Assembly: GCA_028819845.1 (NCBI GenBank)
Contig: JAPPKS010000034.1
Coordinates: 1-50,116, forward strand
Length of the DNA: 50,116 nucleotides
Direction: 5' to 3'
DNA from: Candidatus Poribacteria bacterium
GTDB lineage: Bacteria > Poribacteria > WGA-4E > PCPOR2b
Shown: positions 19,706 to 33,438 of the stretch, piece by piece
How the letters are laid out: every line of letters begins with the position of its first letter
How positions within the stretch are numbered: the stretch's first letter is position 1
Notes under the pieces: generated by a model
What the model saw: the letters and a program-made list of their open reading frames with translations, nothing else
Database searches by the model: none
What the model was told of the DNA's origin: nothing
Position numbers and translations under genes: made by a program

Positions 19706-20326
19706 ATGAAAAACATAGCGAAACATCATTTGTACACGGTTAATTTCCTTGTTGTAATAATCATGTTTATTGGATGCAGTGCCCATAAAACTGTAGAACG
19801 CATTGAGACAGACACCACCGTTGATCTTTCTGGACGGTGGAACGACACGGACTCTCGTCAGGTATCCGAAGAGATGATTCTAGACTGTCTAAATCACCCG
19901 TGGATCACGAATCACATGACGCAATCCAAGGCCGTGAAGCCCATCGTCATTGTTGGAGCGATTCGTAATATGAGCATGGAACACATCGCAATTAACACAT
20001 TTGTGAACGATATCGAACGTGCCTTCATCAATTCAGGCCGAGTTACCGTCGTCGCCAGTGCAGAAGAAAGAGGGGAACTTCGCGCGGAAAAAGAAGATCA
20101 GAGTGAGTTCGCACGTGCTGAAACTATCAAGAGAATGCGGCGCGAACACGGCGCAGACTATATGATGACTGGCGAAATCAACACCATTCAAGATCGCGAA
20201 GGTGGTACCCAGGTCACCTATTACCAAGTGGATTTAATCCTCACAGACATTGAATCAAATGAGAAGGTTTGGTTGGGGCAAAAGAAAATTAAGAAACTTA
20301 TCGAACGTAAGAAGGCTGTCTTCTAG
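19706..20326 (+). CDS. LpoB-like lipoprotein (penicillin-binding protein activator family)
   Basis: A 206-residue lipoprotein with a signal peptide ending MFIGC (lipid Cys at 24). The domain after residue 45 fits the LpoB family (PF13036 type): DLSGRWNDTDSRQVSEEMI, the NMSMEHIAINTFVNDIERAF block with SGRVTVVAS, GADYMMTGEI and QVDLILTDIESNEKVWLGQK. In enterobacteria LpoB activates the synthase PBP1B from the outer membrane; in distant bacteria the role is unproven. GGAAG precedes the ATG. The next gene starts 3 bases after the stop and encodes a COG3014-like lipoprotein, a pairing I recall from other bacteria, so the two probably work together. Confidence 0.85.
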   Translation: MKNIAKHHLYTVNFLVVIIMFIGCSAHKTVERIETDTTVDLSGRWNDTDSRQVSEEMILDCLNHPWITNHMTQSKAVKPIVIVGAIRNMSMEHIAINTFVNDIERAFINSGRVTVVASAEERGELRAEKEDQSEFARAETIKRMRREHGADYMMTGEINTIQDREGGTQVTYYQVDLILTDIESNEKVWLGQKKIKKLIERKKAVF

Positions 20327-20329
20327 TGC

Positions 20330-21928
20330 ATGCCGACGCAATTTTTTCCCCACACAGTTCCTTCACGCCGACGAACCCGTATTTTGCTTCCATCGCTGCA
20401 ATCGCCGGATAATCCCCGCCAAAATAGGCCATCTCTCTTTCGTCTGTTGGCAATACACTTTTGCGGACAATTTGCCATATGGAGAGTGGGCTTTTCACTT
20501 ATTCTGCCAATCCTCATCGGATGCGGCGGTTACAGCATGCACGAAGTGCGCCTCGCAATTGAACGAGGAGAATTTGAAACCGCATTAACACATCTTGATA
20601 AAGAGGATTCGAAAAAAAGAAACCTCCCCTACCTTTTCGAACGAGGTCTCATTGCCCACTATGCAAATCGCTTTGAGGAAAGCAATCAGGAATTTGAACG
20701 CGCCGAGATTATCGCCGAAGATCTTTACACGAAAAGTATCTCCAAGGAGATTGCATCCCTTCTGACCTCAGATACTATTCGTCCGTATCCAGGTACACGT
20801 TACGAAAGGATGCTTATTCACTACTACCGCGCCCTTAACTACGCCTATCTGAATCTTCCGGACGATGCCTTGGTCGAATGTCGGCGTGCGGGCCAACTTC
20901 TCCAATACTACTCCGATGAAGACGAAACCTACAATTTTGCCGGTGCAGCATTCGTCGCTTATCTCTCGGGAATCTTCTATGAATGGGTCGAGGACTGGAA
21001 CAACGCATATATTGCCTATCAATGGGCGGAGGCAGGGTATCAGCGTTACGCAGCACAGCTTGGCGTTTCACCGCCAGACGACATCGGACATGCACTCGTT
21101 CGGCTCGCACGCCTTTTGGGATTCGTTGAAGATTTGAATCGTTACACAGAACTATATGGAGAACCGCTTCCGTCTCCGCCCGGTTTTGGTGAACTCATCT
21201 TCATCTACGAAAGTGGCTTTGTCCCGCACAAAACTACGGAAAACCTCTATTTCCCAATCTTAAAAACTGACCCAATCGTCAGCGGAAAAAAGAGGCGCGA
21301 AGAAAACGAAGACGAACTCTGGGAATTCGCGGACACAGTCTCGCGGCGTAGAAACCTCCGTTACGAGAAAGTAGAACTCGAATATCTGTTGCGAGTAGCA
21401 ATTCCGGTCTACACATCGAATCGCCCTCGATTGGTGCAGGTCAATTTAGAAGTTGAATCTTTGTCAGATCCTACTCACCGTGATAGGATTGATGCAGATA
21501 GCCAACATTCGGAAATCCCAAATCCCGAACCGCGCGCATCGTACATCCAGGCGAACAGTGTCCTAGTCGAAGATGTTGAAGGCGCCGCTCTCGCCACATT
21601 CGCGTCCGAGCAGAATACGATTCTGATCCGAACCGTCGTGCGCGCAATTTTGAAATACTTGGCTTTTCGCCGCGCGGACAAGAAAGGGGATTTACTTGGT
21701 AACCTCGTGAATTTATTCAACGTCGCTACAGAGCGGGCAGACACCCGCTCTTGGGAGACACTTCCAAATCAGATATCTCTCGTGCGAATGTCACTTCCTG
21801 CGGGATCGCATAACGTAACACTCTACTTTTTAGACGATGACGGGATACATCTGAGAACAGAAACCCTTTCAGACGTAAAAATCGAAGCAAACGGAAAGAC
21901 ATTTTTAAATTACCGGACGTTTGAGTGA
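20330..21928 (+). CDS. COG3014-like TPR-type lipoprotein, partner of LpoB
   Basis: Up to 532 residues. A lipoprotein signal (VGFSLILPILIGC) ends at residue 65 counted from ATG 20330. The N-terminal 40-50 residues before it are basic and proline-rich and do not look like a signal peptide, so the true start may be TTG 20447 or GTG 20486; I keep the ATG because it lies 3 bases after the LpoB stop. The middle holds helical TPR-like repeats (LDKEDSKKRNLPYLFERGLI, YYRALNYAYLNLPDDALVE, AYQWAEAGYQRYA). The end shows the COG3014 signature RTVVRAILKYLAF, then ERADTRSWETLPNQI and MSLPAGSH. Likely envelope-located. The last 8 bases overlap the next gene. Confidence 0.8.
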   Translation: MPTQFFPHTVPSRRRTRILLPSLQSPDNPRQNRPSLFRLLAIHFCGQFAIWRVGFSLILPILIGCGGYSMHEVRLAIERGEFETALTHLDKEDSKKRNLPYLFERGLIAHYANRFEESNQEFERAEIIAEDLYTKSISKEIASLLTSDTIRPYPGTRYERMLIHYYRALNYAYLNLPDDALVECRRAGQLLQYYSDEDETYNFAGAAFVAYLSGIFYEWVEDWNNAYIAYQWAEAGYQRYAAQLGVSPPDDIGHALVRLARLLGFVEDLNRYTELYGEPLPSPPGFGELIFIYESGFVPHKTTENLYFPILKTDPIVSGKKRREENEDELWEFADTVSRRRNLRYEKVELEYLLRVAIPVYTSNRPRLVQVNLEVESLSDPTHRDRIDADSQHSEIPNPEPRASYIQANSVLVEDVEGAALATFASEQNTILIRTVVRAILKYLAFRRADKKGDLLGNLVNLFNVATERADTRSWETLPNQISLVRMSLPAGSHNVTLYFLDDDGIHLRTETLSDVKIEANGKTFLNYRTFE

Positions 21929-24590
21929 ATTGCGCGTGACGCCAAGTTCACTAGATTATTTGGAATATAAGGAAGAACAATCTGTGCAGACTGACATGAA
22001 TTCACCCTCTGCCGATGGTGAAAATTGTTCAACGGAGACGCTTGACGTTACGGCGCTTCCAGCAGCACGCCGCTTCAAAGAAGGACAGTTCGTAATTACG
22101 GTGGAACTTCAAACGCCGAGAGAATTCGAGGACCCAAACTTCCAAAAGCAGTTCAAGCGATATCAGCGCCTAGTGCGGAAGGGATGGGTCGACGCGGTTA
22201 CCGTCGTGGATTTTCCCCGCTTTACTGGGAAAATGGATAATCTGGAAGTGCTGGGAGACACGCCGGAACCTATCTTCACGATTGCTGCCAATGCCCGAAC
22301 GCGTAAAACAGTGATAGATCGAGTTAACCGCGCAATCGGTAACGGAGCAAAGGGCGTACTAGTCGTGTCGGGCGGTCACCCAATACGAAAAATCCCCGGC
22401 GCGTCTCGGTTACTACCAATGAACTCGTTCAGGATACTCTCGCTCCTCAACGGTATGCGCAGCGCCGGCACACTACCGTCCGATGTGTCGATTTGGGCGG
22501 TGGAAAACCCTTTTGCAGGCAAATCCGTGATCGCGCGCGTGGATCGCTTACAGCAGAAACTAGACGCTGGCGCCGAAGCGATACTAACTCAGCCGCCCCT
22601 GCTCTGGGACGTTTTTTCAAAATGGCAGCATCTAGTTTTTGAACGCGGTTTAGCGCAACGGATTCCAATCGTCGTGGGACTGCCAGTAATCGCCTCTGTA
22701 AAGGCGCTTCGCTTTTGGTTCTTGCTGGTCGGCATTAGCCAACGAAATCCGGAGGCGCATGCACTCCTCGAACAATTCAAGGAAGCGGAAGCCGCCGGCA
22801 AAGAAGCTTTCCGCGCATTCCGTTCGAATTGGACTGTCGAACTCATAAAGAAAATTTGTCAACTTCCCGGCGTCGCGGGGATACATCTCATGCCAATTCA
22901 GGCTTCCCGCGACATTGAAAAGATTCTTGCGGCAGCGAAATTGGCGCCAGCGGATCGGGCTCGCGAAGACCTTGAACAACTCATTCCCCGTTTGCAAGAC
23001 CTGGGTGTTACGGTCGTTCACGAACCTGGGCTCGTTGACCTAGGGTACGTCGAGGAATTTCGCAATGCTTTGGAAGCCTTGAAAAATTCGTTAGGCGAAT
23101 TGCCGCCCAAATGGCGGCCCGCCCGTTTTAGAACTTACTGGAACCGTATTGCTTATAAGCACCATTTCCGAGCTCCCATCGCATTTCGACCCTTTGTGAA
23201 GAACGGGGCGGAGGAGAGTTCCGTCTCAAAAGATTGGGAACTGGCGGTCGATCTGCGGCAGCACGCGTCGACACAAGAATTAGCAACGTCAATTCCAAGG
23301 ATGTTGGAACAGGTCGTACGCGGAGAGACGGAGTGCGCCAACGGTGTCGTGATTGGCGATTATGTTCCCTATACTAAGAGTCACGTCTGGAAATTCAATG
23401 ACGCGTTCTGGCAGCATAAAACTCCCTTCATGGCGGCGCATAATCGGGACTATCGAGACGCCGTGCACGGGTCGCCGGATATGAATGAAGCGTTGACTCG
23501 TTACACCGCTGAGAAATTCTTGAATCAACTTCAAGCAATCGGCGATACCGGTGATGAGTACGTCTACGTCGAGATTGGTATTGCAAGCGTCGAACGCGCC
23601 CGCATCTTCATTGACATGTTGGTTGAACTCGCCCGTTCGAAAGGAATTGAGAGTCTGTTGAAACAGATGACGTACCTTATGGCTGATTTTTCAGATTCCG
23701 TGCTGTCAGAAGCACAGGCCGAATTAGGAACGGCGCGAAACGAGATACCACTCACGTATCTGCCCCTACACGCTGAAGCTCCCTTGCAGGCACTGAGTCC
23801 CTTCGCGGGCCGCATTGTGCGAATACATTCGACAAACGTCACAGATAACGTTCCGACGGATAAAGTCGCACAGATAGACGGACATCACTATCTCATTCAT
23901 GCTCGCCTCTATCTGCCGGCAGAAATATTAAAGAAATTAGCGGAAAAGTATAATCTCAATAGCCAAAGTTTGGAAGCGGATCTCCGGCAACTTTCAACGC
24001 CTGATGCGGAAGTGAAGGAGTTTCTGACTCACTATCAGTCGGATTTTAGGAATAAGCTTGGTGCGGAGGAAGGCGGCCGTCAATTCTATCATTTCTGGTT
24101 GGACCTCTGGAATGGTTTCAAGTTAGAGGAACGCTACGTTGCCATCCCTGCTTTGGCCGACCTTCGCTTCATTGAAACACCGGAAATTCCCGATCAAGGG
24201 AATGTTCTGCACGAAATTTTGGCTGAGTACCCGCATAATGTATGGATACACCTTTCCAATCGCGCGATTGAGGGTGCATTACAGATGCTTGAACTGCTTC
24301 ACCCACAAGGCGTACTGGAGATTATCGACCTACTAGTAACAGAGATTTCGGACTATCACCATGTTCCACCGCGCCAGTCCAAAAAAACTGGGCGTCCGCT
24401 TTATCGAAGCGGATTCAAGGGGCCAGCCAAGTATGAGGGGTCTGCCGTGGATTGGATAAATGCTCGTCTACTTCGGGCAATGTCAGAGAGACTTTACCCG
24501 AACGCCGTGACAACTTTTACCAGCCTAGAGCGGTTTGATCCCGCCAAAAAGCATATGTCTATTATGGAGCTATGCCCCAATTCGGGCTAG
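21921..24590 (+). CDS. Fusion of MTHFR-like and methyltransferase-like domains
   Basis: An 889-residue soluble protein. Residues about 55-340 look like a methylenetetrahydrofolate reductase (MetF) barrel: FVITVELQTPREFED with a candidate acid Glu62, DAVTVVDFPR, GAKGVLVVSGGHP, GAEAILTQPPLLWDVF and IPIVVGLPVI. Residues about 520-875 look like a Rossmann methyltransferase: YVYVEIGIASVERARIFID (motif I without the usual GxGxG), LMADFSDSVL (589-595 DFSDSVL), NVTDNVPTDKV (639-649) and LLHPQGVLEIIDL (about 792-804), ending with GPAKYEGSAVDWIN. The linker 340-520 is unassigned. The TTG start overlaps the COG3014-like gene by 8 bases; ATG 21996 is an alternative. Pathway unknown; folate-dependent methyl transfer is inference. 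Confidence 0.75.
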   Translation: MSELRVTPSSLDYLEYKEEQSVQTDMNSPSADGENCSTETLDVTALPAARRFKEGQFVITVELQTPREFEDPNFQKQFKRYQRLVRKGWVDAVTVVDFPRFTGKMDNLEVLGDTPEPIFTIAANARTRKTVIDRVNRAIGNGAKGVLVVSGGHPIRKIPGASRLLPMNSFRILSLLNGMRSAGTLPSDVSIWAVENPFAGKSVIARVDRLQQKLDAGAEAILTQPPLLWDVFSKWQHLVFERGLAQRIPIVVGLPVIASVKALRFWFLLVGISQRNPEAHALLEQFKEAEAAGKEAFRAFRSNWTVELIKKICQLPGVAGIHLMPIQASRDIEKILAAAKLAPADRAREDLEQLIPRLQDLGVTVVHEPGLVDLGYVEEFRNALEALKNSLGELPPKWRPARFRTYWNRIAYKHHFRAPIAFRPFVKNGAEESSVSKDWELAVDLRQHASTQELATSIPRMLEQVVRGETECANGVVIGDYVPYTKSHVWKFNDAFWQHKTPFMAAHNRDYRDAVHGSPDMNEALTRYTAEKFLNQLQAIGDTGDEYVYVEIGIASVERARIFIDMLVELARSKGIESLLKQMTYLMADFSDSVLSEAQAELGTARNEIPLTYLPLHAEAPLQALSPFAGRIVRIHSTNVTDNVPTDKVAQIDGHHYLIHARLYLPAEILKKLAEKYNLNSQSLEADLRQLSTPDAEVKEFLTHYQSDFRNKLGAEEGGRQFYHFWLDLWNGFKLEERYVAIPALADLRFIETPEIPDQGNVLHEILAEYPHNVWIHLSNRAIEGALQMLELLHPQGVLEIIDLLVTEISDYHHVPPRQSKKTGRPLYRSGFKGPAKYEGSAVDWINARLLRAMSERLYPNAVTTFTSLERFDPAKKHMSIMELCPNSG

Positions 24591-25026: not shown

Positions 25027-28000
25027 ATGGCAAGCGCAAAAGTCCTGATTGTTGAACACATCCCCTTCGTTGCTCAAGACTTAGCGGGACGACTCAAAAA
25101 AGCTGGATATTCGGTATGTGCCTCGGTTGCCTCCGATGCACAAGCCGAAGGAAAGGTGGAAGAAATCTCTCCCGACATAGCCATAATCAACGTGGAACTA
25201 CAAAAACCTGACATTCAGCTCATAAAGAAGATAAATAGTCGGTTTAAAATCCCAGTCGTATGGCTAATTGGGGAATTGACCGAAGAATTGATTGAGCAGT
25301 TATCCGACGCATTTCAGTTTGAGTGCGTCTTCCAGCCCCATGATACAAACCAGTTGCGTTTGAGCATCGAAAAAAGCTTGCGTCGTCATCGGAAACTTCA
25401 ACAACTTGCCGAGAAAGAGACGGAGCTAAAATCGACAATTCAGCGGTTGGAAGAACGCGTCGGATTCATGAAGGTAATTTTTGATAATATCAGCGACGGA
25501 GTTATCGCGTCGAATGTAAATGGGGATTACTTCATGTTTAATCCGACCGCTGAAGAGTTGAACGGCCCTGGCATGCCAAGCATTCCCTTTGCCGAGAGAA
25601 GTGAAACTTACGGTCTCTTCCACGCTGATGGTGAAACTCTCTTTAAGGAGGAGGAATTGCCGCTAGTACGTGCCATTCGCGGTGAGATGACGGACAATAT
25701 CGAGATGTACGTGCGCAATGAAAAGCGACCGGAAGGGGTTCGTATCAATGTCAGCGGGCGGCCCCTTTACGACATTAACGGAGAATTGAAAGGAGGCGTG
25801 GTAGTTACGCACGATGTCACACAACTCAAGGACATCGAAAACGAATTGAGGGAAACAATCAGCAAACTCGAAAATCAGACCAAAATCATGGAAACCATCG
25901 TTAGCACAATAGCGGACGGCGTGATAGCAATGGATTTTGACGGCAATAATTTGCTCTATAATGCTCCGACGGAGCAAGTCACAGGTTCTTTTCCTGTACT
26001 CGCCGAGTTAAATGAATGGTCAGAGATATATCAGGTGTATCATCTTGATGGGGAAACTATGTATACCGCGGATGAATTGCCGCTGGTGCGTGCGTTACGC
26101 GGCGAGTCGACAGACAACGCCCTGATGCAAGTGCGGCGTGAAAACAAGACCTATGTTCTTAACGTCAACGGTAGGCCCCTTTTTGACGAACGGGGAAATT
26201 TAAGCGGCGGCGTCGCAGTTTTCAGCGACATAACACAACTCAAAGCAACTGAAGCTAGATTGGAATTTACCATTCAGGAACTCAAACAGCAGACTCGACT
26301 CATGGAAACTGCCTTTGATAGTATCAGCGATGGTGTAGTGGTGATGGATTCCTCTGCCAGAATCTTACTTGCCAATCCCAGTTTGCAGCGAATGAGCGGC
26401 GTGAAAGTGGAAGACGCACCGCCCGAAGAGTGGGCTCAAAAGTACGGATTGTTTCATATAGACGAAGAGACCGAAGTTCCCACGCATGAAAACCTTCTCG
26501 TCCGTGCACTTAACGGCGAAGAATCTGAGGAGATGGAGTTCTTTCTGCAGAATGATAAAAAGCGGGGCAAAACTTACCTCCGCGCAAAGGCTTACCCGCT
26601 TCATGGTAATGACAGCACCGAAGTTACGGGCGCCATCGCAGTCATACGCGACATTACATCGGACAAAATGGCGATGACTGAATTACAACAAATGATGCAG
26701 AAGTATCAGGAGCAGGCGCAACTCATGGACACAGTATTCAACAGCCTCAGCGAAGGAATCATTGTAACCGACAAGATGGGTAAATTCCTATTTGTTAATC
26801 CGATGGCAGAGCAAATCACGGGTTTGGGCGCTATTGCGGCAACACCCGAAAAGTGGAGTGAACTGTACGGCGTTTTCTATCCGGATACGGTGACACCGTA
26901 TCCATCAAATGAACTGCCCCTCGTTCTCGCAATGCAAGGGAAAGACTCAACCGATGTAGATCTTTTCTTGCGGAACTCGGAGCGGCCCGATGGAGCTCAT
27001 ATACGAGTCACTGGCCGCCCGCTGTTTGATGAAAACGGTGCCTTGCGTGGAGGCGTAAGTGTGTTGCGAAATATCACCAAGTTGAAGTCGGTAGAAAATC
27101 GCCTAGCGAAAACAGTTGAGGAACTGCAAAGTCAAACCCTCTTGTTGAATACTATTTTCAACAGTATTGGTGATGGCCTCATCGTGGCTAATGATAAAGG
27201 GCAATACGTAATGTTTAACCGTACTGTTGAAGGAATGGTCGGGCGCAAATTGGAAAATCTTACCCAAGCGCCCGAGAAATACGGATTGTTCCTTCCCGAT
27301 AACAAAACCATCTTTCCTTTTGACGAGCTTCCGATCGCCCGCGCACTGCGGGGAGAGGAAGTAACTGAGGTTGAAATGGTTGTGCGAAACCAGATGTTGC
27401 CAGATGGGGTGCATGTCAGTATCAGCGCAAATCCATTGCTTAACGAGTCGGGGGAAATTGAAGGCGGGGTTGCGATTGCCCGCGATATCACAAGAATCAA
27501 GAGAACAGAACAGCAACTCAAAGACTCAATTAATCAACTTGAACACCAACGCCAACTCATGCAGTCCATATTTGATAGTATCAGCGATGGTGTCGTCGTC
27601 GCCGATGAAAATGGCCATTTCACCATATTCAACCCAAGCGCGGAACGAATAGTCGGGCAAGGCGCAACCGATACGGAACCCGATGAATGGTCGGACCAAT
27701 ACGGACTTTTCTTTCCCGACAGAGAAACACCGTTTCCACCTGAAGAACTCCCGCTCGTTAAAGCAATACGCGGTGAGGGAACTGACAGCATTGAGATGTT
27801 CGTGCGCAACCCTAAATTGCCGGACGGGTTATATATCAGTGTCAGCGGCAGGCCTCTGCGCGACCGAAACGGAAATCGAAAAGGAGGCGTGGTCGTCTTC
27901 CGCGATGTTTCGGATAAAATCTTCGCCGAGGAAGCGTTGGCGCAAGCCTTTTCGCAAGGTCGTCTGGAAATTGTGGATACTATTCTCCACAATATCGGTA

Positions 28001-28785
28001 ACGCCATCAACAGTGTCGTGACAGGTATTGGTACGCTAAATAGCCGTTTAACCGAGAATCGGTTGATACACCGATTCAACGCCCTTGCGGACGCTATTAG
28101 GGCGAATCAGGATGATTGGATTGATTACATCAAACATAATCCACAAGGACAGAAGGTGTTGCCCTTTGTGTTAGCGCTCGCCGAAGATTTTACAAAACAG
28201 AATGAAGACCTGATAAATACGGTTGAACGGGTTAACAACAGGGCAACACACATTGTCGATATTGTGCGTACGCAAAAATCGTTTAGCGACACTAGCGCCG
28301 TCCGAAAGGATGTTGACTTAAAGAAAATCATCAATGATGGAGTTAAGTTACTACAAGACTCATTAGACAAAAGAGGGATTCAGCTCGATATAGACTGCCA
28401 GAAGGCGCCTCAAGAAATTCGAATTCAAGAAAGCCAATTTCATCAGATGATAGTCAATCTAATCAAGAATTCTGTTGAAGCAATTGATGAACTTGGAAAT
28501 TCCGGCGGCATCGCACAGCCGCCTCGCATTGAAGTAAAAGCCTACTTAAAGGAAAACCATCTCTGCATTGACGTGACTGATAACGGCGTCGGCATTGAAA
28601 ATACCAAATTTAAAACGATATTTGCGGCAGGTTACACGACTAAGGCGTCAGGAAGCGGATTAGGGCTTCACTCGACCGCGAACTTTGTTGTTGGCTCCGG
28701 CGGGAAAATCTACCCGTTGAGTGAGGGAATCGGTAAGGGCACAACAATGCGGGTTATGCTTCGGCTCGATTCTATCATCCCGTAG
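25027..28785 (+). CDS. Histidine kinase with degenerate receiver and six tandem PAS domains
   Basis: A 1252-residue soluble sensor kinase. Residues 5-118 form a receiver fold whose key residues are changed: the acidic-pocket position is E10-H11, the phospho-Asp position is Asn55, the Thr position is Ile81 and the Lys position is Gln103. Six homologous PAS units follow (about 147-270, 286-406, 424-546, 565-686, 704-825, 842-963), each starting like LM(E/D)T.F(D/N)SISDGV and ending GGV.V.RDIT. The kinase core has the H-box ILHNIGNAINS (His988), an N-box in MIVNLIKNSVEAIDE, DNGVGI (1185-1190) and GSGLGLHS (1209-1216). There are no membrane helices. It is the first gene of an operon with a sister kinase and a sigma-54 regulator. 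AGGAG precedes the ATG. Confidence 0.93.
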   Translation: MASAKVLIVEHIPFVAQDLAGRLKKAGYSVCASVASDAQAEGKVEEISPDIAIINVELQKPDIQLIKKINSRFKIPVVWLIGELTEELIEQLSDAFQFECVFQPHDTNQLRLSIEKSLRRHRKLQQLAEKETELKSTIQRLEERVGFMKVIFDNISDGVIASNVNGDYFMFNPTAEELNGPGMPSIPFAERSETYGLFHADGETLFKEEELPLVRAIRGEMTDNIEMYVRNEKRPEGVRINVSGRPLYDINGELKGGVVVTHDVTQLKDIENELRETISKLENQTKIMETIVSTIADGVIAMDFDGNNLLYNAPTEQVTGSFPVLAELNEWSEIYQVYHLDGETMYTADELPLVRALRGESTDNALMQVRRENKTYVLNVNGRPLFDERGNLSGGVAVFSDITQLKATEARLEFTIQELKQQTRLMETAFDSISDGVVVMDSSARILLANPSLQRMSGVKVEDAPPEEWAQKYGLFHIDEETEVPTHENLLVRALNGEESEEMEFFLQNDKKRGKTYLRAKAYPLHGNDSTEVTGAIAVIRDITSDKMAMTELQQMMQKYQEQAQLMDTVFNSLSEGIIVTDKMGKFLFVNPMAEQITGLGAIAATPEKWSELYGVFYPDTVTPYPSNELPLVLAMQGKDSTDVDLFLRNSERPDGAHIRVTGRPLFDENGALRGGVSVLRNITKLKSVENRLAKTVEELQSQTLLLNTIFNSIGDGLIVANDKGQYVMFNRTVEGMVGRKLENLTQAPEKYGLFLPDNKTIFPFDELPIARALRGEEVTEVEMVVRNQMLPDGVHVSISANPLLNESGEIEGGVAIARDITRIKRTEQQLKDSINQLEHQRQLMQSIFDSISDGVVVADENGHFTIFNPSAERIVGQGATDTEPDEWSDQYGLFFPDRETPFPPEELPLVKAIRGEGTDSIEMFVRNPKLPDGLYISVSGRPLRDRNGNRKGGVVVFRDVSDKIFAEEALAQAFSQGRLEIVDTILHNIGNAINSVVTGIGTLNSRLTENRLIHRFNALADAIRANQDDWIDYIKHNPQGQKVLPFVLALAEDFTKQNEDLINTVERVNNRATHIVDIVRTQKSFSDTSAVRKDVDLKKIINDGVKLLQDSLDKRGIQLDIDCQKAPQEIRIQESQFHQMIVNLIKNSVEAIDELGNSGGIAQPPRIEVKAYLKENHLCIDVTDNGVGIENTKFKTIFAAGYTTKASGSGLGLHSTANFVVGSGGKIYPLSEGIGKGTTMRVMLRLDSIIP

Positions 28786-28941
28786 TTGCGACAATTTTAG
28801 CGGCATTGTGGAGCGATCCACATAATTGGCGTGCAATGATGGGCGTAAATTGCCTGGGTGAACCCGAAAGCGAATGGTTCACTTGCGGCTTGGATTCAAG
28901 GTAGATCTATTGCATCTACCGACAATTAAGGAGAAACCACT

Positions 28942-31401
28942 GTGCCCGAGCAAACGAAGATTCTTATTGTCGGGGATAATCCCCGCATCGCCGACGATAT
29001 CGCGGAACGGCTTACTGGTGTAGGATATGATATCTGCGCCGCAATTCCAGCCGACTCACAAGTTGTTGAAACTGCGATGGATATTGCGCCCGATTTAGCC
29101 TTAATTGATGTGGGACCTCAAGAAAGCATGAATGGCATTGATATTGCCAAGAACGTAAATGAGCGCTTGGACATTCCAATCATTTTTCTTACCGGCTACG
29201 TTAACGCGGCGTTGCTTCGGCGCGTCAAGGAAACCAGAGCATTTGGGCATGTTTTCAAACCTTATGACACCAACCAATTGATTCTCAGCATTGAGAACCA
29301 TCTATTCTGGTATGAGGAAGATAAGAGATTGGTTGAAAAAGAACGCCGGCGCGCGACCATTTTGAACAGTATCGGCGAAGGTGTGATCGCCACCGACAAA
29401 AAAGGGTTAGTTAGCTATATGAATTCAGTCGCCGAGCGTTTGACAGGGTGGAGCCAAGAGAAAGCGAAGGGCAGGCCGCTGGCGCAAGTATTCAAAACCA
29501 AAGCTGACTTAGCTTCCCCCGCGGAAGGCAGCGTAGACAACTACACAAACTTCGTTACGACACTCATGCATGCAGACGGCAAGGAAACTCACGTCGACTT
29601 TACGGTAGCGCCTATTGTTGACGCGTATGAAAATAACTACGGCGCCGTGATGGTTTTCCACGACATTTCAAAACTCAAAACTGCCGAGCGCAATCTGGAA
29701 CTGACAATTGATGAACTTCAAAAACAAACCCAACTGATGGAAACCGTATTTGATAGTATGAGTGACGGCGTTGTCGCTACCGACGAAGCGGGCAATTTCC
29801 TGCTTGTTAATCCGAGCGCCGAAAGGATTGTCGGCATGGGAGAAACCGACACCCAACCCAGCGAATGGTCGGAAACGTACGGCACCTTTTATCCGGACAG
29901 ATCGACGCCTTACCCAGCACACGAACTTCCGCTTGTACACGCGATGCAAGGCAAGGAGACCGATAGCATCGATCTATTTCAAAGAAACGCGATGAAGCCG
30001 GATGGAGTTTTTATCAACGTCAGTGGAAGACCGTTGCTTGAAAAGGAAGGCGGCGTGCGCGGCGGCGTTATCATCTTCCGAGATGTCACGAAACTCAAGG
30101 AGACAGAGATTAAGTTAGAACAGACAATCGACAGGCTAACCAGCCAGGCGCAGTTCATGGAGTCCATCTTTGAAAGCATCAGTGACGGCGTTATAGTCGG
30201 CAATGAAAACTCTGAGATAAAAATCTTTAATCCTGGCGCCGATCGAATTCTTAGGCGCAATTTTTGGGATCAGCCGCCCGAGATGTGGACGCTTGATGCG
30301 TTGATTGCCGGGCATGATTTCTATTTTCCCGACCGAGTCACGCCGTATCCACTAGATCAACTACCGCTTAGACTTGCCATCCAAGGCGAGGAAATCGACG
30401 AAGTCAATATGTTTGTTTCCAACAGTGAGATTTTTCCGGAGGGTGTCTTTATTAGCGCAAGCGGGAGGCCTATCCGCAATCAATGGGGTATTGAAAACGG
30501 CGGTGTCGTCGTTTTTCGCGATGTCACCCAACGAATGCTTGAAGAGGAAGCCTTGGCACAAGCATTTGCCCAAGGGCGGTTGGAGATTGTTGATACTATC
30601 CTCCACAATATAGGGAATGCAATAAACAGCGTTATGGTAGGCATAGGTACCCTGTATGATGAGCTAGTTGAAGATAAGCTAATCCAACGCTTTACTGCCT
30701 TGGCGAATGCTATTAAGATGCATGAAACGGACTGGATTGACTACATCAAAAACGATCCGCAGGGACAAAAGGTGCTACCGTTTGTGCTTGGGCTCGCCGA
30801 AGATTTCTCCAATCAGAATGAGAAGTTGATTCGCACTGTGGAGCGCGTCAATGGCAGGTCAACGCACATCGCCGAAATTATCCGGACGCAGAAATCGTAT
30901 AGCAATGTAAGTGTAGTTCGCAAGGATGTCATTCTTCAGAAGGCGCTGGCGGATGCTGCCAAACTGCTCCAAGATTCAATTGACCAAAGAGGAATTCAGA
31001 TTAAGATTGACTGTTCAAATGCGCCCATGGAGGTACGAATCCAGGAGAACCAATTCCATCAAATGATAGTCAACTTAATCAAGAATTCCATTGAAGCCAT
31101 TGACGAACTCACGCAAACCGGTGGACAGAATGAAACCCCTAGCATAGAGATTAACGGGTATGTTAAGGACGACTTTCTTTTCATTGACGTAACGGACAAC
31201 GGAATCGGGCTAGAACCGGAAAACTACAAGAAAGTCTTCGCCGCCGGTTACACCACCAAAAATTCCGGAAGCGGACTGGGTTTGCATTCAACAGCGAATT
31301 TCGTCATTGGCTGCGGCGGCCAAATCCACGCGTTGAGTGAAGGGATTGGCAAAGGCACAACCATGCGTATCATGCTCCGGTTGGTCTCTGTTACACCATA
31401 G
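28942..31401 (+). CDS. Sister histidine kinase with intact receiver and three PAS domains
   Basis: An 819-residue soluble kinase, closely similar to the previous gene product in its kinase core and receiver. The N-terminal receiver keeps the working residues: Asp12, phospho-acceptor Asp56 (LALIDVG), Thr84 (FLTGY) and Lys106 (FKPYD). One ordinary PAS (about 138-246) is followed by two PAS units of the same type as in the sister gene (about 265-386 and 405-530). The kinase core has the H-box ILHNIGNAINS (His555), an MIVNLIKNSIEAIDE N-box, DNGIGL and GSGLGLHS. The start is GTG 28942 with AAGGAG at 28928-28933. The 156 bases upstream hold no strong promoter, so read-through from the first kinase is likely. 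Confidence 0.93.
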   Translation: MPEQTKILIVGDNPRIADDIAERLTGVGYDICAAIPADSQVVETAMDIAPDLALIDVGPQESMNGIDIAKNVNERLDIPIIFLTGYVNAALLRRVKETRAFGHVFKPYDTNQLILSIENHLFWYEEDKRLVEKERRRATILNSIGEGVIATDKKGLVSYMNSVAERLTGWSQEKAKGRPLAQVFKTKADLASPAEGSVDNYTNFVTTLMHADGKETHVDFTVAPIVDAYENNYGAVMVFHDISKLKTAERNLELTIDELQKQTQLMETVFDSMSDGVVATDEAGNFLLVNPSAERIVGMGETDTQPSEWSETYGTFYPDRSTPYPAHELPLVHAMQGKETDSIDLFQRNAMKPDGVFINVSGRPLLEKEGGVRGGVIIFRDVTKLKETEIKLEQTIDRLTSQAQFMESIFESISDGVIVGNENSEIKIFNPGADRILRRNFWDQPPEMWTLDALIAGHDFYFPDRVTPYPLDQLPLRLAIQGEEIDEVNMFVSNSEIFPEGVFISASGRPIRNQWGIENGGVVVFRDVTQRMLEEEALAQAFAQGRLEIVDTILHNIGNAINSVMVGIGTLYDELVEDKLIQRFTALANAIKMHETDWIDYIKNDPQGQKVLPFVLGLAEDFSNQNEKLIRTVERVNGRSTHIAEIIRTQKSYSNVSVVRKDVILQKALADAAKLLQDSIDQRGIQIKIDCSNAPMEVRIQENQFHQMIVNLIKNSIEAIDELTQTGGQNETPSIEINGYVKDDFLFIDVTDNGIGLEPENYKKVFAAGYTTKNSGSGLGLHSTANFVIGCGGQIHALSEGIGKGTTMRIMLRLVSVTP

Positions 31402-31518
31402 AAAAAAGTTTCGAATCACGTTACGCGGCGACGGCCGTTGAAGGCATTTAGCACTACCGATAATCACGCTTCAATCAAGCTCTCATTCCAAAACAGACGC
31501 TTATACCGGAGGAAAAAA

Positions 31519-33438
31519 GTGAATCCGAGAAATCAAAACCCAGAATGGAATAACCGCGTCCTTATTGTTGACGATCAAGAAAACATCCACGACGACTTTG
31601 ATGATATGTTGTTCTCCGGTCCTTCTTCAGAAACCTCGACTGATGATCTTGCGGAAGCCTTTCTTGAGGAATCCGATGACACGTTTTTACCGGAGCTCAA
31701 ACTCTTCCACGCTTCTAGCGGCGAACAAGCTTACACCATGGTAAAGTCCGCGAAAGACTCGAGCGAGCCCGTAGCTGTTGCCTACGTTGATATCAGGATG
31801 CCGCCGGGAATAGATGGCATTGAAACTATCCGCCGAATCAGAAAAATTGATAAAAACATTGAGATAGTGATTATGACCGCCTATACGGACAAGCCGCTGC
31901 CTGAAATCGTGCGGGATATGGAATTGCTTCACAAGCTGCTTTATATTAGAAAACCGTTCGCGCGGGAGGAAGTGCAGCAAATCACTATGTCTCTGGTTCA
32001 GAAGTGGAACATCGAGCAGGAATTGAAAAAAAATCGACGGCAACTTGCAACTAACCATCGAAGGCTTGAAACCGTGATTGATGCCTCAGGAGATGCTATT
32101 GGAATGTTTGACGACAATGGAAATCTACTTTTTGCCAATCATGGGTATCGCCAGTTGTTTGACTTGACGAAGGGTCAACTTGACGAGATTTCGCCTGCTG
32201 ACCTTGAGGCGCGCATTGCAGCGCGGCTGCAAGCGTTCGAAGCCCCCGATGAAGATCGAATCATTCAGCTAGAAAATGTGGAAAGCATTATGGAAGAAAT
32301 TGATGGCAAGGACAACTCAACGCAAAGACTCTTTTATCGCACGGCAATGCCTATCAAGAACACCGGGAGCGATGGAGGCGGTACGGTGGTCAGTTACCGC
32401 GACATTTCCAAAGAGGCGGAAATCCAGCGGATGAAAGCGGAGGTTGTGCGTTTGAGGACAGCACTTGAGACCACTTACTCCTACGATGAAATCGAAGGCA
32501 AAAGCAAAGCAATGCGGGAATTATACTCGCTTATTCAGCGCGCTACCGAAGGCAATATCACTGTCCTTATTCAAGGCGAGAGTGGTACGGGAAAGGAACT
32601 CGTGGCGAGGTCCATTCACTATAACAGCCAGCGTAAAGCCGGGCCGTTTGTTACCATCAACTGCACGGCTATTCCTGAATCGCTGATCGAAAGCGAGTTG
32701 TTCGGTCATGAGCGTGGGGCTTTTACGGGGGCGTCTGCTAGAAGAATTGGGAAATTTGAGCAAGCCGACAAAGGCACCATCTTTCTTGATGAAATCGGCG
32801 AGATGCAACTTAGCCTTCAAGCAAAGTTGTTGCGCGTTTTGCAAGAGCGGCACTTTCAACGCGTCGGCGGCGCAACGAATATTGTGACCGACATCCGAGT
32901 ATTGACGGCGACCAACCGCGATTTAGAAGCAGCCGTAAATGCGGGTGGATTCCGGGAGGATTTATATTTCCGCATTGCCGCTTTTCCCATCCGCATCCCG
33001 CCGTTAAGAGAGCGTCTTGAGGATATTCCAGCCTTGGCAAATCACTTTCTAAAAAAATACGTCGAGGACAGTGGTAAATCTATTCGCGCAATCTCTCCGG
33101 AAGCGCTGCAACTCTTGGTACAGTATGATTTTCCCGGCAACGTGCGCGAACTAGAGAATGTCATAGAGCGCGCCGTTTTGTTTGAGACAACGGAATTCCT
33201 GCAACCCGACAGCCTATCTTTACAGATTCCGAGCGTTCGATCGGCTGAAGCTATCGATTTATTGGCGTCTGGTTCAAATGTTATTGTTCCGCTTGATGCC
33301 GTAGAACGACGAGCCATCATCAACGCGCTCAAAGTTATGGGAAACAATGTTACCAAAGCCGCTGAAGCGCTGGGCATAGATCGCTCCACGTTTCACCGGA
33401 AATTAAACAAATATAGCCAACACGACGCGGATGCATAG
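31519..33438 (+). CDS. Sigma-54-dependent response regulator (REC-PAS-AAA+-HTH)
   Basis: A 639-residue transcription activator. The receiver (13-160) is of the VDDQENIHDDF type, with Asp18/19, phospho-Asp91 (YVDIRMPPG), Thr120 and Lys145. Then a PAS domain (about 180-300) and an AAA+ sigma-54-interaction domain (about 322-550) with Walker A GESGTGKE (353-360), GAFTGA (400-405, the loop contacting sigma-54) and Walker B TIFLDEIGE (about 420-428). The C-terminal Fis-type HTH is NNVTKAAEALGIDRSTFHRK. The start is GTG 31519, set by GGAGG at 31508-31512; a TTG at 31438 would add 27 unlikely residues. It is the third gene of the operon, after the two kinases that probably phosphorylate it. rpoN is not in the window. 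Confidence 0.94.
   Translation: MNPRNQNPEWNNRVLIVDDQENIHDDFDDMLFSGPSSETSTDDLAEAFLEESDDTFLPELKLFHASSGEQAYTMVKSAKDSSEPVAVAYVDIRMPPGIDGIETIRRIRKIDKNIEIVIMTAYTDKPLPEIVRDMELLHKLLYIRKPFAREEVQQITMSLVQKWNIEQELKKNRRQLATNHRRLETVIDASGDAIGMFDDNGNLLFANHGYRQLFDLTKGQLDEISPADLEARIAARLQAFEAPDEDRIIQLENVESIMEEIDGKDNSTQRLFYRTAMPIKNTGSDGGGTVVSYRDISKEAEIQRMKAEVVRLRTALETTYSYDEIEGKSKAMRELYSLIQRATEGNITVLIQGESGTGKELVARSIHYNSQRKAGPFVTINCTAIPESLIESELFGHERGAFTGASARRIGKFEQADKGTIFLDEIGEMQLSLQAKLLRVLQERHFQRVGGATNIVTDIRVLTATNRDLEAAVNAGGFREDLYFRIAAFPIRIPPLRERLEDIPALANHFLKKYVEDSGKSIRAISPEALQLLVQYDFPGNVRELENVIERAVLFETTEFLQPDSLSLQIPSVRSAEAIDLLASGSNVIVPLDAVERRAIINALKVMGNNVTKAAEALGIDRSTFHRKLNKYSQHDADA

Follow-up and report, generated by a model that had tools for sequence, protein, structure and literature searches.

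Core methionine synthases of the four families MesA to MesD consist of a MetE core without a folate domain. One partner has been described among them, MesX (DUF1852), which MesD needs and which is the predicted methyl supplier (Price et al., PMC7857596). The source of the methyl groups of core methionine synthases is an open question, as is the mechanism of MesX (Price et al. 2021). Other described systems combine methylenetetrahydrofolate reductase (MTHFR) with additional domains or subunits. These are the bifunctional homocysteine methyltransferase/MTHFR (PRK08645), the MetVF-type MTHFR (PF02219 with PF12225) and the eukaryotic MTHFR, in which the barrel is followed by a linker and an S-adenosylmethionine (SAM)-binding domain. 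This domain has a fold of its own and is not known to have relatives beyond the eukaryotes, and SAM regulation of MTHFR has been described as absent from prokaryotes (PMC5995969). Here, we analyze a 50,116-nucleotide stretch (the window) of contig JAPPKS010000034.1 from a Candidatus Poribacteria bacterium, whose genome is 96.6% complete. A gene at positions 21921-24590 of the window fuses an MTHFR gene with a gene of an undescribed family with the fold of MidA (COG1565), which we refer to as the C family. We propose, with a probability of roughly 0.38, that the C family serves core MetE as its methyl-transfer partner and that the fusion in the window is a diverged branch of it. A literature search, the scope of which left out subscription papers and preprints, returned no description of the fusion or of the related operon.

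An MTHFR barrel fused to a MidA-like domain

The N-terminal part of the protein is related to MTHFR. PF02219 matches residues 116-338 with 45.2 bits (E 1e-11; curated cut-off 24), and the best 50 Foldseek matches listed for the barrel are MTHFRs throughout (E 1.5e-12 to 1e-9), with target-normalised TM-scores of about 0.75-0.84 against the short solved bacterial enzymes. The AlphaFold2 model of the full-length protein, based on 75 aligned sequences, reached a mean predicted local distance difference test score (pLDDT) of 85.4 and a predicted TM-score (pTM) of 0.80. A match to the xylose-isomerase barrel (PF01261) scored under its cut-off and was set aside. The MetF-like barrel of the original prediction is thus present, and the protein is the sole MTHFR match in its genome. 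As in PRK08645, an MTHFR barrel is fused to a methyl-transfer domain. However, the partner in PRK08645 is an N-terminal zinc homocysteine methyltransferase barrel, whereas in the window it is a C-terminal Rossmann domain, and the PRK08645 model gives the window protein only 42 bits (cut-off 453).

The flavin site of the MTHFR half was judged by sequence alignment. Equivalents of Glu28 and Gln183, as well as the histidine of the MTHFR triad, are kept in all five fused proteins that we found (see below). Asp120 is an invariant, catalytically essential residue of MTHFR, and the roles of the glutamate and the glutamine were likewise taken from this source (PMC9900621). Its equivalent is a glycine in 5/5 fused proteins and an aspartate in 8/8 separate MTHFRs aligned. 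None of the five fusion-bearing genomes yielded a match to MetV (PF12225), and the same search found MetV in genome G005 and in a mycobacterial genome. The fused proteins therefore share the barrel and the Glu28 and Gln183 equivalents with MetVF-type enzymes, but differ from them in the glycine and in having no detectable MetV in the genome; in the operonic relatives described below, the MTHFR gene stands behind a gene for a MetV-like zinc protein.

The second half of the protein starts near residue 343 and has a methyltransferase-like fold. Modeled alone, it reached a pLDDT of 84 and a pTM of 0.84, and its six best matches in the Protein Data Bank all belong to the MidA/NDUFAF7/COG1565 group (5ztz, 5zu0, two chains of 1zkd, 4g67 and 4f3n; Foldseek E 1.4e-7 to 8e-6). 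The likeness covers the shared core only, since the TM-score normalised by these targets is 0.45-0.57. At the sequence level, neither a Pfam profile search with the window protein (no PF02636 match) nor one with the C half alone (chance-level families only) recovered the relationship, and hhalign of the single C-half sequence against six MidA proteins gave nothing. The family profile alone produced a match to the MidA profile (E 3.5e-4, probability 37), aligned on motif I and the DNLP segment, and of 31 C-family members, 23 reach E 0.01 or lower against PF02636. By eye, the likeness to MidA extends to three pairs of segments: RDYRDAVHGSP and GDFxTAPE, VEIGIAS and VELGPGRG, SAVDW and TAHVDF. 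The methyltransferase assignment, which in the original prediction rested on motif likeness, now has fold and family grounds owing to the Foldseek, profile-profile and PF02636 matches. Neither of the two outcomes named beforehand as refuting that prediction, a missing barrel or a C half that does not resemble methyltransferases, came about. Homology to the regulatory domain of eukaryotic MTHFR was not borne out: the fold matches are methyltransferases, and Pfam gave no match to such a domain.

The C half thus shares with MidA/NDUFAF7 (PF02636, Methyltransf_28) a class I methyltransferase fold, in which motif I and the NEFFDALP-like segment align with their counterparts in the window, the latter with NVTDNVP. 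It differs from them in a broken glycine loop (EIGIASV instead of the ELGPGRG type), in a long insert after the DNxP motif, and in its gene context, which is either a fusion with MTHFR or a place next to the MTHFR and core MetE genes. The deviant motif I, EIGIAS, had been pointed out from the letters of the window, where it occupies residues 551-556 (from position 23571). All five fused proteins carry the pattern E[IG]G[IV][AS]S[VI] and have lost two glycines compared with the ELGVGNG of separate C proteins. Other positions are strongly conserved. In the three fusions aligned, the unchanged residues (window numbering) are Y412, R423, E440, D444, N493, W497, E551, G553, D565, D589, N639, D642, N643, P645, W726, E737, N780, H794, D803, K837, Y838, G840, S841, W845, and N847.

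Separate C-family genes lie in methionine-cycle clusters

Searching genome contigs, viral contigs, plasmids, and phages with the single protein did not turn up any full-length relative. We therefore scanned genome contigs with patterns widened from two segments of the C half, which yielded 150 candidate stretches; 95 of these encode relatives according to tblastn, and 80 were kept. The alignments behind the widening contained invented variants of the window protein, which served solely for selecting search words. Each pattern match was verified with tblastn on the basis of the true window sequence, and the invented rows entered no reported alignment, tree, or model. The C family is wider than sampled here, because the search words favoured sequences with the two chosen segments. 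Among the 80 stretches, two contain the whole fusion and 78 encode the C half as a separate gene (about 490 amino acids), mostly in actinobacteria and in some Chloroflexi. The Pfam matches of C-family members are to methyltransferase models only and do not include DUF1852 (MesX). We know of no biochemistry for any C-family member.

The separate genes have a recurrent neighborhood. A core MetE gene lies directly downstream on the same strand in 76/78 loci, and an MTHFR gene lies upstream on the same strand in 52/75, so that the linkage to core MetE is the tighter one. In 34 loci, the C gene starts inside the 3' end of the MTHFR gene at one fixed overlap. MetK follows core MetE in 53 of 70 loci and MetV (PF12225) is present in 45 of 71, with AhcY, PurU, a PfkB kinase, and FolD in part of the loci (identities by Pfam). 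One locus, in Mycobacterium deserti (L049:3166-14681), contains in a row a homocysteine methyltransferase-MTHFR, MetV, MTHFR, the C-family protein, core MetE, MetK, AhcY, a PurU-like protein, a PfkB-like kinase, and FolD, that is, nearly the whole methionine and one-carbon cycle.

The adjoining synthase retains its zinc and homocysteine ligands. H641, C643, E665, C726, and D599 are kept in 76/76 core MetE proteins of the loci and S433 and E484 in 75/76; these positions span the zinc ligands and the homocysteine-binding residues. The proteins match Meth_synt_2, and Meth_synt_1 appears only as a sub-threshold echo, indicating that they lack a folate domain. None of the NCBIfam methionine synthase models that they match is reached at its cut-off, and the nearest solved structure is 3rpd, the structure of MesD (PMC7857596). 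The module thus resembles the MesA-MesD and MesX systems in linking a MetE core without a folate domain to a partner gene of unknown chemistry. It differs in that the partner is MidA-like rather than DUF1852 and that an MTHFR gene belongs to the module, whereas MesD needs no metF. A partner gene placed directly before the core synthase, and paired with or fused to MTHFR, is a concrete candidate for another methyl route.

Distribution and ancestry of the fusion

The two fusions recovered by the scan come from a Latescibacteria record (L046; 44% identity over window residues 42-884) and an Omnitrophica record (L047; 35% identity, inside a 2863-amino-acid frame). Searching 64 genomes from the phylum of the Latescibacteria added two more, 54% and 48% identical, so that the fusion is present in 3/64 of them. 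In the phylum of the window, it occurs in 1/85 genomes, and the C half was not found in the other 84. The predicted joining of both halves in one open frame is hence real rather than a product of chance or assembly, since intact fused copies occur in records from two other phyla, namely in three Latescibacterota genomes (47-54% identical) and one Omnitrophota protein. The fusion is rare and patchy over three phyla, and was likely transferred between them. The codon use and GC content of the window gene resemble those of neighboring genes; capture of a foreign-looking gene was dropped as a candidate, as native-like composition neither shows nor excludes transfer. The Omnitrophota frame (L047:1346-9937) appears by eye to combine in one chain an EamA-like membrane part, the MTHFR-MidA-like module, and a C-terminal HMG-CoA-lyase-like barrel.

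In the phylogenetic tree, the five fusions group together by their MTHFR halves (100/100), and this clade joins the operonic MTHFRs to the exclusion of 19 other MTHFRs (98/99). Both halves of the fusion thus descend from the same gene pair. The stem branch of the fused clade is long, at 3.2 changes per site.

Proposed role and alternative explanations

The domains, folds, gene linkage, shared ancestry, and paired residue losses are established, and from here on we infer every catalytic step. Where its genes are separate, we read the C family as part of methionine synthesis, because the methionine/SAM cycle recurs around it and the adjoining synthase cannot bind folate alone. The MTHFR part would make or hold methyl-tetrahydrofolate, and the C domain would pass the methyl group to zinc-bound homocysteine on core MetE, replacing the folate-binding half of MetE. 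The fused form would more probably bind and relay the folate-bound methyl than reduce methylene-tetrahydrofolate or use SAM in the usual way. For the fused proteins, we consider binding or relaying methyl-tetrahydrofolate more likely than making it, given that the aspartate and two SAM-loop glycines are lost and MetV was not detected. Judging from these paired losses in the sequences, the fused protein likely performs neither reaction in the standard manner. Of the suggestion that one chain generates or senses methyl-tetrahydrofolate and hands on a one-carbon unit, the barrel and the methyltransferase fold have therefore stood, and the generating step has lost ground. A broader proposal would count this as the fifth type of core methionine synthase, in which a MidA-fold protein, either fused to MTHFR or encoded alongside it, relays methyl groups from methyl-folate to the MetE core and the fused barrel is a methyl-folate holder rather than a reductase; we regard this as rather unlikely.

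The link to core MetE is strong for the separate genes and weak for the fused protein. The window's genome encodes one core MetE with the same ligands as the operonic ones, and neither full-length MetE nor MetH was found in this genome. We rejected the co-occurrence as proof of partnership, because fusion-free relatives carry closer homologues. Several observations weigh against a partnership of the C family with core MetE. The core MetE gene of the window's genome shows no linkage to the fusion, and the proteins that match its product best come from those fusion-free relatives; this genome moreover encodes separate homocysteine and pterin-binding methyltransferases beside a corrinoid protein. 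The fusion-bearing Omnitrophota genome (completeness not established) has no match to PF01717 (core MetE) and contains a MetH-size frame, and the two Latescibacterota loci that include flanking genes show neighbors of the fusion that are unrelated to methionine. The textbook SAM loop of the separate C proteins points to SAM, not to methyl-folate. Finally, the locus counts are not independent trials, as the loci are mostly actinobacterial and share ancestry.

Some of these observations would be expected if the fused clade had taken up another function, for example as a catalytically silent binding or scaffolding protein, so that the operons of its distant relatives with separate genes would say nothing about it. 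The joint loss of the MTHFR aspartate and the motif I glycines in 5/5 fusions, the long stem branch, the unrelated neighborhoods, the patchy spread in two phyla, and the missing MetV and (in Omnitrophota) core MetE matches all fit such a shift. Nevertheless, the catalytic glutamate, the folate-anchoring glutamine, the triad histidine, and some 20 polar or aromatic C-domain residues are unchanged over three phyla, which would be needless for a mere scaffold, and we consider this explanation unlikely. About equally unlikely is an ordinary SAM-dependent methyltransferase acting on a protein or small molecule, with SAM regenerated by the nearby MTHFR, core MetE, MetK, AhcY, and adenosine-kinase-like genes and the fusion channeling methyl supply. 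MidA/NDUFAF7, the best fold match, is a protein arginine methyltransferase family, with complex I subunit NDUFS2 as the methylated protein; the separate proteins have a classical motif I and the acidic strand-2 residue, and SAM-cycle genes lie close by. However, we recognised no substrate gene that is shared among the clusters, where it is methionine/SAM cycle and one-carbon genes that recur, the SAM loop is damaged in the fused clade, and fusing a SAM user to MTHFR would skip the intervening MetE and MetK steps.

The order of parts matches that of eukaryotic MTHFR (barrel, linker, then a domain that may bind SAM), although the window has a MidA-like domain in place of the unrelated eukaryotic one. 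In the literature covered, the arrangement of an MTHFR with a C-terminal domain of SAM-binding fold is otherwise described for eukaryotes only, and there with a different fold. The MidA-like domain could accordingly be a sensor that binds SAM or S-adenosylhomocysteine and controls the barrel. The pairing of MTHFR and C genes, the presence of MetK in the clusters, and the intact SAM loop of the separate C proteins agree with this, but the C gene is tied closer to core MetE than to MTHFR, the loss of two loop glycines together with the MTHFR aspartate would be odd for a feedback-regulated reductase, and the many invariant polar residues of the C family look like an active site rather than a sensor. 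We regard a sensor role as improbable.

Features of the gene and surrounding loci

The coordinates of the original prediction are correct, but the true start of the gene is probably the ATG at 21996 (residue 26) or a later codon, because residues 1-45 mostly have a pLDDT below 50 and the 54%-identical relative begins near residue 44.

Table 1. Positions of the fusion gene and its features in the window.
Feature	Position	Strand	Basis
Whole fusion gene, 889 amino acids	21921..24590	+	Open frame; TTG start as called
MTHFR-like TIM barrel, residues 50-340	22068..22940	+	PF02219, Foldseek, tree with operonic MTHFRs (98/99)
Glu62, catalytic Glu (E. coli Glu28), kept	22104..22106	+	Alignment; role from PMC9900621
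Gly152 at catalytic-Asp position (E. coli Asp120, T. thermophilus Asp109)	22374..22376	+	Alignment
Gln224, folate-anchoring Gln (E. coli Gln183), kept	22590..22592	+	Alignment
Linker and alpha/beta part before Rossmann core, residues 341-546, with RDYRDAVHGSP	22941..23558	+	AlphaFold2 models, C-family alignment
Class I methyltransferase-like core (MidA/COG1565 fold), residues 547-803	23559..24329	+	Foldseek, PF02636 matches of relatives, profile-profile match
Motif I EIGIASV, residues 551-557	23571..23591	+	Alignment; ELGVGNG in separate-gene relatives
Asp589, acidic end of strand 2, family-invariant	23685..23687	+	Alignment
NVTDNVP, residues 639-645; N, D, N, P family-invariant	23835..23855	+	Alignment
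AKYEGSAVDWIN, residues 836-847; K, Y, G, S, V, W, N family-invariant	24426..24461	+	Alignment

MTHFR is joined to other partners in relatives from the phylum of the window. Frames of about 820-880 amino acids (L018:4525-7017, L019:4223-6730, L020:4162-6627, and L021:5130-7784) combine an MTHFR barrel with a MetV-like part rich in cysteine and, by eye, with a pterin-binding methyltransferase-like barrel, and frames of about 530 amino acids in L026, L028, and L030 join only MTHFR and the MetV-like part. On contig C2 of the window's genome, a cluster at L152:3752-11201 encodes a UroD-like protein, a corrinoid protein, an ASKHA-like reactivator, a pterin methyltransferase, and a homocysteine methyltransferase. 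In the relative L153, the pterin and homocysteine methyltransferase genes adjoin an MTHFR-MetV fusion, which the window's genome is without.

Within the window, the fusion gene is preceded (19706-21928) by a gene for an LpoB-like lipoprotein and one for a TPR-containing protein, the latter overlapping the called TTG start by 8 bases. It is followed (25027-33438) by genes for two long proteins, by eye PAS-sensor histidine kinases with closely similar internal repeated units, and then a sigma-54-type response regulator.

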